Shown here piece by piece: positions 4,359 to 34,152 of a DNA stretch of 64,000 bases. The stretch is taken from assembly GCF_014133895.1 (NCBI RefSeq), contig NC_050727.1, positions 1,054,001-1,118,000 on the forward strand, in the 5' to 3' direction. This DNA comes from Torulaspora globosa (taxonomy: Eukaryota; Ascomycota; Saccharomycetes; Saccharomycetales; Saccharomycetaceae). A program made the translations under genes and the position numbers. The notes beneath the pieces are model-generated. The model ran no database searches. It saw nothing but the letters and a program-made list of their open reading frames with translations, and was not told where the DNA came from. How positions within the stretch are numbered: the stretch's first letter is position 1; each line of letters starts with the position of its first letter.

Positions 4359-5224
4359 ATGATTAACCACGCTCGGGTCTGGAGAGTATGTTCACTTGAT
4401 GTTCTTGTATACTGTGCATTTGTCCTTTTACTAACGCTGTTTGCCTATAGTTCGCGCATGCAATTCGTTACCTATCAACAAGAGCTGCCGAGACTGCCCT
4501 ACCCAATGCTGCGGCCCCACCACGTTACACATTAGCTACTGTTAGGGCATTTCCTTCATTAGAACCACTCACATTTGCGCCAGTGCCAGCATCTGTGCTT
4601 GCTGCGCCATTGAGGAGAGATATACTGTGGAGAGCAGTCGTCTACGAGAATGATAACAAACGTGTCGGATCCTCGAACCCACCCGGTCGGAGTGAGAACG
4701 GATACTCCCGCCGTAAATTGCTACCTCAGAAGGGTTCTGGTAGAGCCAGAGCAGGTGATGCCAACTCCCCCACAAGACACAACGGTGCGCGTGCGCTTGC
4801 CAGAACCGCTCCCAACGACTACAGCACAATTTTGCCGTCCAAGATCTATTCGCAGGCCATTACCAACGCACTGAGTCACCAGTACAGAAGCGGGAACTTA
4901 TTCGTTATTGGAGGCGCTAACACGCTTTCACAGACGAATGAACTCGACCTGAACGAACTCGAGATAGTACCTACATCCCCAGACTCACCCAGCGGAGACA
5001 TTGTCTTCGAGAGATTTCTCGAAGAATACGACCTCATAAAGAAGAAGCTACTTTTCATTGTCAGCGAACCGAGAGAGACATTAATGCAGCATACCGAGCG
5101 GTTTAAAGACACCGTAGATATTGTGCAGCAAGAGCTTGTTGATGTGAACGATTTACTAAAGGCCAAGAAGATATTCATAGAATTGGAGGCACTCGAATAC
5201 CTAACGGTAACCCATTCTTTGTGA
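4359..5224 (+). CDS. YML6: Mitochondrial 54S ribosomal protein uL4m, two exons
   Basis: Mitochondrial large-subunit ribosomal protein of the uL4 family. Exon 1 (4359-4385) encodes nine residues; exon 2 (4451-5224) completes a 266-residue protein. The N-terminus (MINHARVWR then [13 protein letters not shown]) is basic and lacks acids, as in a mitochondrial targeting peptide. The uL4 core is visible: [18 protein letters not shown], followed by the glycine/arginine-rich [21 protein letters not shown] loop that lies in the exit tunnel region. S. cerevisiae YML025C also carries a 5' intron. Without splicing, exon 1 is out of frame with the body. It lies between UTP6 and RPS18, consistent with the YML025C-YML026C order. 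Confidence 0.93.
4386..4450 (+). other. 65-nt intron of YML6
   Basis: Starts GTATGT, has TACTAAC at 4429-4435 and ends TATAG at 4450. The branch C to acceptor distance is only 15 nt. All three signals are canonical, and splicing is required to join the targeting-peptide codons to the uL4 frame. Confidence 0.92.
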
Positions 5225-31716: not shown

Positions 31717-34152
31717 CTATTGTTGACTATCATGAGTATTACTGTCAAGTGGTCCAATCCATTCCCAACATTTCATTATTTCGCCGTGAATTTCCATGAG
31801 GGTGGAGCGAACATTGGTATTATTCCTTTCTAGAGTCTTTGCTACAGCTTGCCACAATTTGTTCTTATAACTGAGATCGGTGATGTCAGCAAGCAGTACA
31901 TCTCTCAACTGAACCACACTTAAAAAATCAGGCACTTGGTCCTGTTTCTTGACAGCCTTCAGTTTACTCACGACCTTCTTACTCAATTCCTCTATAACCT
32001 CACGCTGTTTATAGAATTTCCTGATCCTGTATGAAGTGTATTTTACCAGAATGACGAGAATGACGGTTGACCAAATCAAATAGGCGTACTTGTTGTAAGT
32101 TTGATAGATCTCCCTTTCGAATCTACATCTAAGCCCGACGTACTTCTTGGATGTCGAGCGAAGAATCCTCGTCTTTTTCCCTCTGTCTGTCTCTGAAAAA
32201 TGTCCTGTCTTTGCCGGAACACCATCGATTGTAAGCTGGTCGTTGGTGCTGTCAATGGCTGAAGGTTTACTGTTTGGTAACTGAACCCACTTCTCTTGAT
32301 TGTTAGTAATAATGATTTTTGAATTACTTGATGAAAAAAAGTCATTACTCACTTGCCTCCAAGTTATTTCAGGTTCCTTAATCAGGTCTGAGACGGCCTG
32401 AGACCACAGCTCATCGAATTCATCGTCGTTGATCCAGGGAGCCCGTGATTCATAAAATATTTGATATAATTCCTTTTCCGTCATTCCACTCTTGGAGTAA
32501 TCATTAGACGCTCCACAAGAGTACTGAGCATTCTTCATCCTTAGAAACTCCAGAGATTTCTTAACGACCTCGGAGACTAATTTTTCTCTTTTCGTGTCTT
32601 TAACGCAACTATCACTAAGTGGAAGCAAATGATGTAAGCTCCACCTATTTCTATGCAGTGCGTATTCAGGTTGGCACTTCATCTGCATTAATGGGTAGCA
32701 AATGGCATGATCCGGACAAGGCAAACAATTTGGCTTTTGACTCTCCAGAAATTCATCAATTTTGGAAAGTGCTGTTATTTTGCTATCAAACAGTTTGCCT
32801 GTTTCTGTCTCATGCCCACAATAACCTATCAAAATTCTTTGTTCACGATACCAAAGACCATAAATGATAGGCATGACAATTATAAGGAAAAGTGAGATAT
32901 CCCGCAGCATTCTTCCAAGCGACTTGAAAAATGTTTTAGCCGGCCAAGCCCTCGTACGAAGGTTATGCTCTTTCTCTGTGACTTGCTCGATATAATCGTG
33001 CGTCCCCACAAGATCGACCTCCGCAGGCAGTTGAGATGTATTTATCATCGAGGGTTGCTCGACGTTGATGTCTCCATGGTGACTGACATCTTTCTCAGTG
33101 TCGAGCTGACATTCCCTGTTATCATCTGATGATTCAGACTTAGCAGTTGAAGTCAAATCTCCATGGGGTACGTTAGTTGACGCTTCAGTGGATGTCTCCT
33201 TTCCTACGCTTATTTCTGCCGGGCCGGATATGTAGTTCATTTCCAGTTCGGAATGCGACTCCGGCCGAGCAAGAACGGGGACGGAGTTATCCTTATAGGC
33301 CACCTTTAGTTCATCCGCAAAAGCAGGCGAAACGTTCAGGCTATTGAGATCAGGCACAAGCGTTTTCCGCTCAAAACTGAAATCATTCTTGATAGTATCC
33401 CGATCGTCGGATCTCTCGGTTCCAGCATGACCCCGGCGAGATACATTAAGGATCGAAGACTCATTGAAAGAAGATTCCGAAGATGAAGAAGATTCGAACT
33501 TATCGATAGTCAAGGACTTGTGTGGTGATTTATTAGGTGACTTCTGAGCCACCTTTTCCGTAATAGGAGTATGTTCACCTTCGCCAATCTTGCGTCTCCT
33601 CTTCTTATCCAAGGCTCCGCCATGCGATTGATCTTCCACACCGACTCCCATATCCAAGAGCCCCTCTCGATCCTCATTCCCTTCCTTCTCTACTATCTTT
33701 CTCTTCCTAGCTTTTCTCTTGGCAGCACCGCCTTGCTGAAACTCGTTAACGTCACTAAACGCTGTGCTGGCGATGAGATCCACCGCGCGATCAGATTTGG
33801 CGCTAGCGCCGCTGTTGCTATCAGCCTCGTGGTTCTCTGATCCGGATAAAGCTGCAGATTCTGCACTGCTAATCTTACCCTTTTTCTTCTTCTGCTTCTC
33901 TCTCTTTTTGACTTTCTTACTGCTGTTCACTGCCACTTTCACAATCCCCTTATCACTGGGCAACAAATTGTCGTATCTGCTCCTCAACTTAGGTATCTCA
34001 GGCTTCACACGCGCTTCAAACAGCCCTACCAACGTACTCTTCTTCGACTGCGGTGAGAACTCGACTCCATTTTCCATCAAAATCCTTCTCAGTTGCGCCA
34101 CTTTCAGGCTATTCGGATCAAAGCCAGGTTTCAGGTACTCCAAATCCATCAT
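31717..34152 (-). CDS. HEH1: Inner nuclear membrane LEM/MSC protein, single orthologue of Heh1(Src1)/Heh2, alternatively spliced
   Basis: Inner nuclear membrane protein of the Man1/Heh family, linked to rDNA tethering, nuclear-pore quality control and chromosome segregation. The genomic frame is open over 811 codons, but a conserved intron lies near the 3' end. Long isoform: exons 34152-32353 and 32280-31717, 787 residues, with the N-terminal HEH (LEM-like) helix-extension-helix (FDPNSLKVAQLRRILMENGV), a basic NLS-rich stretch (KKREKQKKKKGK), a first membrane segment (SLFLIIVMPIIYGLWY), the luminal MSC domain (GYCGHE... CLPCPDHAICYP), a second membrane segment (LIWSTVILVILVKY) and an end in EIMKCWEWIGP. 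Short isoform: splicing 4 nt earlier shifts the frame and stops at 32076, giving 666 residues without the second membrane segment. Matches YDR458C HEH2 by order and YML034W SRC1 by splicing. Confidence 0.93.
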   Translation of the reverse strand: MMDLEYLKPGFDPNSLKVAQLRRILMENGVEFSPQSKKSTLVGLFEARVKPEIPKLRSRYDNLLPSDKGIVKVAVNSSKKVKKREKQKKKKGKISSAESAALSGSENHEADSNSGASAKSDRAVDLIASTAFSDVNEFQQGGAAKRKARKRKIVEKEGNEDREGLLDMGVGVEDQSHGGALDKKRRRKIGEGEHTPITEKVAQKSPNKSPHKSLTIDKFESSSSSESSFNESSILNVSRRGHAGTERSDDRDTIKNDFSFERKTLVPDLNSLNVSPAFADELKVAYKDNSVPVLARPESHSELEMNYISGPAEISVGKETSTEASTNVPHGDLTSTAKSESSDDNRECQLDTEKDVSHHGDINVEQPSMINTSQLPAEVDLVGTHDYIEQVTEKEHNLRTRAWPAKTFFKSLGRMLRDISLFLIIVMPIIYGLWYREQRILIGYCGHETETGKLFDSKITALSKIDEFLESQKPNCLPCPDHAICYPLMQMKCQPEYALHRNRWSLHHLLPLSDSCVKDTKREKLVSEVVKKSLEFLRMKNAQYSCGASNDYSKSGMTEKELYQIFYESRAPWINDDEFDELWSQAVSDLIKEPEITWRQVSNDFFSSSNSKIIITNNQEKWVQLPNSKPSAIDSTNDQLTIDGVPAKTGHFSETDRGKKTRILRSTSKKYVGLRCRFEREIYQTYNKYAYLIWSTVILVILVKYTSYRIRKFYKQREVIEELSKKVVSKLKAVKKQDQVPDFLSVVQLRDVLLADITDLSYKNKLWQAVAKTLERNNTNVRSTLMEIHGEIMKCWEWIGPLDSNTHDSQQ
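32281..32356 (-). other. Alternatively spliced intron of HEH with overlapping 5' sites
   Basis: On the minus strand the donor region reads GCAAGTGAGT (32356-32347), which contains two overlapping 5' sites: GCAAGT (from 32356) and GTGAGT (from 32352). A perfect TACTAAC is at 32308-32302 and the first YAG is CAG at 32283-32281. The GTGAGT intron is 72 nt and in frame; the GCAAGT intron is 76 nt and shifts the frame. The unspliced sequence is also open. S. cerevisiae SRC1 is known to use the same kind of overlapping donor pair 4 nt apart. Confidence 0.85.

Follow-up and report, generated by a model that had tools for sequence, protein, structure and literature searches.

Overlapping 5' splice sites in the single HEH1/SRC1-type gene of Torulaspora globosa, and evidence suggesting selection on its predicted short form

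The gene and its genomic setting

The gene described here occupies positions 31717..34152 on the reverse strand of the window (the whole stretch of Torulaspora globosa DNA that was analyzed, 64 kb), and its unspliced frame has 811 codons. It begins with a tandem ATG ATG (34147-34152, reverse strand); the public protein of this locus, P0001, starts at the second of the two. The gene product matches two Pfam families above their curated cut-offs, HeH (PF12949, 45.1 bits; 34015-34116, reverse strand) and MSC, the Man1-Src1 C-terminal domain (PF09402, 367.6 bits; 31750-32886, reverse strand). The best named relative is a Torulaspora globosa protein with 83% identity, while S. cerevisiae Src1p shows 36% identity across 84% of the query. 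The public record of the Zygosaccharomyces parabailii orthologue is named for HEH2 as well as SRC1. A PDB sequence search with the unspliced frame gave nothing at E <= 0.01.

There is only one PF09402 match in the genome (9.28 Mb, 8 contigs). One HeH match reaches 49.8 bits, above the cut-off of 28.9, and another lies far under it at 15.4 bits. The initial annotation had supposed a single HEH gene and had named a second paralogue as the finding that would overturn its reading; such a paralogue was sought genome-wide and none was found. The gene and its neighbors run as follows: an Ndc1-type protein, Rad52, a 3247-residue HECT protein, the HEH1/SRC1-type gene, AMP deaminase, a DHHC protein and a MAT1/RING protein. 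In the S. cerevisiae maps, SRC1 lies in the series NDC1, RAD52, SRC1, AMD1 and HEH2 in the series TOM1, HEH2, PFA5, TFB3; the window neighbors interleave the two, as would be expected of a gene order that predates the yeast genome duplication. The gene is the single HEH1/SRC1-type orthologue (an inner nuclear membrane protein of the Man1-Src1 family) of this Torulaspora-type yeast.

The genome also encodes a Hub1 homologue (78% identity) and a SART-1/Snu66-type protein (L006:1492-3057, contig C8) with one HIND motif; S. cerevisiae Snu66 is described with two in PMC4141198. With both proteins encoded, the regulator described in S. cerevisiae is available.

Splice signals and predicted products

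All features of the intron lie on the reverse strand. The donor region, GCAAGTGAGT (32356-32347), contains two overlapping 5' splice sites 4 nt apart, and is found once within the 64-kb window (both strands), at the HEH1/SRC1 donor. We take the donor letters of S. cerevisiae SRC1 to be the same. The upstream site, GCAAGT (32351..32356), would define a 76-nt intron and a short form, as predicted from sequence only, and the downstream site, GTGAGT (32347..32352), a 72-nt in-frame intron and a predicted long form. A branch site, TACTAAC (32302..32308), and a 3' splice site, CAG (32281..32283), follow. The 72-nt intron (32281..32352) amounts to 24 codons and contains no stop in the long frame. Elsewhere in the window, donor-like hexamers with TACTAAC and YAG downstream at intron-compatible distances occur at 4386 (+), 5717 (+), 52127 (-), 39165 (-), 36609 (-) and 950 (-), and these are candidate introns.

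Read in this way, splicing at GTGAGT gives 787 residues, splicing at GCAAGT gives 666, and the unspliced frame gives 811. Long-form exon 2 spans 31717..32280, ending with a TAG stop at 31717-31719, and the short-form frame occupies 32076..32280 of the same exon, ending with a TGA stop at 32076-32078 (all reverse strand). The short, frame-shifted reading contributes 67 codons past the junction codon. The initial annotation had given the same three protein lengths, intron sizes of 72 and 76 nt, a short stop ending at 32076 and 67 alternative-frame codons, and all of these hold, the last when counted after the junction codon. By hydropathy, the long and unspliced forms have two membrane segments each and the short form has one. 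The first (long-form residues 415-433; 32854..32910, reverse strand) is present in all three, and the second (residues 666-684; 32029..32085, reverse strand) is absent from the short form. Use of GCAAGT would thus shift the frame and drop both the second membrane segment and the winged helix, leaving a tail that is basic, with 11 K/R vs 4 D/E among its 67 residues.

The short frame and its similarity to the Saccharomyces tail

Openness of the short frame on its own is only mildly unusual, and near chance. When exon 2 was recoded synonymously 20,000 times, a frame this long stayed open in 3.3% of cases (P = 0.033), and of 12,590 codon starts taken from 20 other genes of the window, 3.2% give an open frame of at least that length. 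The initial annotation had regarded the alternative frame as open in the way expected if it is used; it is open, but at P about 0.03 this is weak when taken alone, and the length of the open frame was dropped as strong evidence.

Two public proteins, by similarity from one Saccharomyces species, correspond to the two predicted forms, P0041 (862 aa) to the spliced long form and P0023 (707 aa) to the short form. They are compatible with a single DNA sequence across 50 codons, with no conflict. The short tails of the window and P0023 align without gaps over 48 residues with a score of 111. Either the window exon or the Saccharomyces exon was recoded synonymously under three codon usages (six sets of 20,000); whether stops ended or masked the frame in scoring, the highest chance score was 97. 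Over the 48 codons of this alignment, the window and Saccharomyces share 21 residues in the short frame and 17 in the long frame. At 12 of these 17 long-frame residues the codon is identical as well (expected 5.4, P = 7e-4), two of the 12 having been picked by the analyst between two options. When recodings preserve third positions as often as observed, the tail score is unexceptional (P 0.20; 0.04 under looser and 0.87 under stricter conditioning). The similarity therefore shows conserved DNA and not, by itself, a conserved short-frame protein, and it was dropped as proof of coding. With this third-position reservation, the comparison points to homology between the short-form tail of the window and the Saccharomyces short form.

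Searched against public proteins, the window short tail (short-form residues 590-666) gave 51 candidates, none with E <= 10, and no relative was confirmed at the DNA level when alignment A1 was searched against genome_contigs and viral_contigs. The Naumovozyma dairenensis protein P0021 (NDAI_0C00790) is annotated through the intron and into a stretch resembling the short tail after RQVS, which scores 50 against the window tail and 67 against the Saccharomyces tail, scores that stand without a control. It then resumes an apparent long frame, which would fit a fusion of both frames through an indel or an annotation join.

Codon-position bias in the overlap

Within the overlap, position 1 of each long-frame codon is position 3 (the wobble position) of the short frame, and the resulting test uses proteins alone. 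If the short protein is selected, residue changes in the long frame should prefer position 1 and shun positions 2 and 3. This is the pattern found. Six independent pairs have changes at codon positions 1:2:3 of 37:14:0 in the overlap, vs 233:230:65 in exon 1 and 47:49:12 downstream, a count that excludes 13 multi-step or ambiguous overlap changes. The corresponding P values are 0.002 (position 1 v 2) and 1e-4 (1 v 2+3); these and the P values that follow for codon position are approximate, with changes treated as independent. The same pairs have no indels in 296 aligned overlap residues, while exon 1 has 72 gap positions and 3,557 aligned ones.

Parsimony on a tree of 21 yeast proteins gives 131:51:5 for the first 44 overlap codons vs 1,072:951:288 elsewhere (P = 8e-7 for 1 v 2 and 4e-10 for 1 v 2+3), with 64 multi-step or ambiguous overlap changes excluded and codons 45-56 left out of both sides. 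Among 241 sliding windows along the protein, five reach the overlap value, each of them overlapping it, and none lying wholly outside does. In a residue-matched control (without P0018), 124 of 175 changes fall at position 1 where 80.5 are expected, a value reached in 0 of 20,000 draws. The excess is seen in the ZT group (Torulaspora, Zygotorulaspora and Zygosaccharomyces relatives, P0001-16) at 100:36:3, in a Torulaspora-like set at 45:16:2 and in Zygosaccharomyces at 24:6:0; it is non-significant in P0008-11 (15:11:1) and in the four Saccharomyces alone (15:9:0).

These counts are good evidence that the predicted short tail is a selected protein sequence, most clearly in the ZT group, and the tail is probably a dual-coded domain of ancient origin. 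In T. globosa the dual-frame stretch with codon-position evidence for the short frame comprises exon-2 codons 1-50 (32131..32280, reverse strand).

It could be argued that conservation of the overlap acts on the DNA or RNA, for example through a splicing element, and not on the short-form protein, and the short-frame score, which is not unusual once third-position conservation is allowed for, agrees with this. A frame-blind element, however, predicts something other than long-frame changes that favor position 1 and avoid positions 2 and 3. In the ZT group, moreover, the bias stops near codon 50, with no excess left in codons 51-68 (8:17:1), and the Saccharomyces short frame ends at about the same place; such an element is an improbable explanation. 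A chance origin, in which only GTGAGT matters, the GCAAGT match is incidental and the short frame happens to be open, is very unlikely: it would accommodate the P of about 0.03 for openness alone, and the statement by Marshall 2013 that, of the S. cerevisiae isoforms, only the longer one had been shown functional at that time (PMC3597508), but it is opposed by the tail similarity, by the frame-specific codon-position bias and by later reviews that assign the short form a role (PMC8393842, PMC10216172).

The readable intron in related yeasts

At the intron site, RQV is present in 36 of the 55 proteins compared, and 29 of the 36 have RQVS; protein alignments show this motif and not whether its Arg codon ends in G, and the GC donor itself is not visible in them. 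The seven proteins with RQV and without S are P0027, P0035, P0039, P0040, P0046, P0049 and P0051; P0046 comes from a Maudiozyma record, and P0027 and P0039, at least, belong to more distant yeasts. Four proteins of more distant yeasts (P0027, P0039, P0040, P0049) keep RQV, and not the S, at the same place, which means that the intron position may predate the overlapping donor pair.

Sixteen of the 29 RQVS proteins belong to the ZT group, 15 by tree and P0017 by similarity only. The unspliced frame is open through the intron in 15 of the 16, P0017 having a stop, and the open introns are 72, 75, 78, 81 or 84 nt long, all multiples of three. Outside the ZT group only two of 13 introns are open (P0021, P0043), and the Saccharomyces ORF P0024, unlike the stop-free 72/76-nt intron of T. 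globosa, stops two residues past RQVS. In Kazachstania africana CBS 2517, one paralogue (P0043) keeps RQVS and an open intron-like segment and the other (P0028) has no RQV there, as if one copy had lost the intron after duplication.

In the 15 read-through introns of the ZT group the donor codons V-S are kept in 15/15 and the branch codons T-N in 14/15, the acceptor Q and T-N or T-D-N having been built into the intron search pattern, and the remainder of the segment varies. Since donor and branch codons are kept in otherwise variable introns, splicing seems to be maintained. This argues against the unspliced 811-residue form being the main long protein of the ZT group, with the intron mostly retained, a highly doubtful proposal that draws on the stop-free, 3n introns of 15 of the 16 ORFs and on four NCBI-sourced records that leave the intron in (P0002, P0011, P0012, P0016), against which P0013 (Z. 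parabailii) is annotated as spliced. An intron of this length and composition is open by chance with a probability of 0.17, and the species share ancestry and are not independent. For these two reasons the third, unspliced product of 811 residues is only possible: the frame proposed for it earlier is indeed open, here and in most of the ZT group, and the product itself remains a candidate.

Comparison with known systems

The closest parallel is S. cerevisiae SRC1/HEH1, whose tandem overlapping 5' splice sites give a two-pass form of 834 residues and a shorter form (Src1-L/Src1-S, also Heh1-L/Heh1-S) without the second membrane segment and the MSC domain (PMC8431670). T. globosa resembles it in the spacing of the overlapping donors (4 nt) and in the frame shift (PMC3983031, PMC8431670), and its predicted short form loses the same two parts; the earlier statement that S. 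cerevisiae uses this arrangement agrees with both sources. Because S. cerevisiae SRC1 already has the overlapping-donor switch, the arrangement in T. globosa is not new in kind. The two S. cerevisiae forms are given as ∼60:40 S:L, and neither seems to be targeted by NMD. Without Hub1 the short form falls threefold (PMC3983031), and the effect of Hub1 has been described as apparently restricted to the SRC1 transcript (PMC4141198). The winged helix of the long form recruits Chm7 (PMC6461442), and reviews citing a 2020 paper state that the short form has 49 residues of its own and restrains this recruitment (PMC8393842, PMC10216172). The private tail thus differs in length, 49 residues in S. cerevisiae (PMC8393842) vs 67 in T. 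globosa after the junction codon.

A further difference from S. cerevisiae SRC1 is that the T. globosa genome has one MSC gene, and that use of two forms is here predicted from sequence. The initial annotation had given weight to this setting, in which one locus could supply both forms, but SRC1 of S. cerevisiae alone makes both (PMC3983031), so the single-gene setting adds less than had been held. HEH2 was considered as the one-pass half of a split gene and ruled out by the architecture described for Heh2, which is similar to that of Heh1, winged helix included (PMC6461442); given this likeness, the paralogue is no substitute for the short form.

The other parallels are partial. The intron of PTC7 in Saccharomycetaceae is stop-free, of 3n length and kept across species (PMC3597508), as the one described here may also be in the ZT group; PTC7 offers a choice between splicing and retention, without overlapping donors, and both its products have been shown in S. 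cerevisiae, whereas retention here is only a possibility. SKI7/HBS1 of Lachancea kluyveri is likewise one unduplicated, alternatively spliced gene whose post-duplication copies differ (PMC3597508). There, each of the two isoforms has a counterpart among the post-duplication genes, whereas SRC1 has kept both forms and HEH2 does not correspond to the short one. Dictyostelium also has a two-pass Src1-L and a one-pass Src1-S from one gene, but its Src1-S is attributed to intron retention and not to overlapping donors (PMC11816917).

Interpretation

The locus is very probably a single HEH1/SRC1-type gene with one intron spliced from two 5' sites 4 nt apart. Choice of GTGAGT would keep the frame and yield a two-pass inner nuclear membrane protein with a C-terminal winged-helix (MSC) domain, while choice of GCAAGT would yield a one-pass protein without the second membrane segment and the winged helix, whose basic tail would, by topology, lie in the lumen of the nuclear envelope. 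Both donors are predicted to be used in T. globosa. By analogy with S. cerevisiae, Hub1 acting through Snu66 may promote the GCAAGT site, and the short form may restrain recruitment of the ESCRT protein Chm7 by the long form, as reported for that species. The gene anatomy, the one MSC gene, the dual-frame pair in Saccharomyces and the codon-position constraint on the short frame in relatives together support the two-isoform reading. The overlapping donors of the earlier proposal accordingly stand as the best reading, with comparative support, and the part of its interpretation that leaned on the single gene does not.

A bolder extension, which we consider rather unlikely as a whole, is that three nuclear-envelope proteins under selection come from the ZT-group locus. 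Besides a two-pass form, these would be a one-pass form whose dual-coded lumenal domain predates the yeast genome duplication, and a second two-pass form carrying a lumenal insert of 24-28 residues translated from the retained intron, the length of which varies only in steps of three among the open relatives.

Significance

Alternative splicing that yields two working proteins is rare in budding yeasts. What this analysis adds to the known switch is evidence that suggests selection on the short form, and hence that the short protein may be functional and of long standing, and not splicing noise. In the full-text literature covered, a body that excludes the likeliest primary papers (Grund 2008, Mishra 2011, Capella 2020), neither the short tail nor the readable intron was seen reported as conserved in one-HEH yeasts, and the observation is not claimed to be unpublished. 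If a selected private tail is indeed present in one-HEH yeasts, it would date the switch to before the genome duplication, and would point to conserved residues of the S-specific domain for mutation. The exon would then offer a compact example of dual-frame coding for two proteins. Such selection would also help to explain the retention of Hub1, the effect of which is apparently restricted to the SRC1 transcript in S. cerevisiae (PMC4141198).
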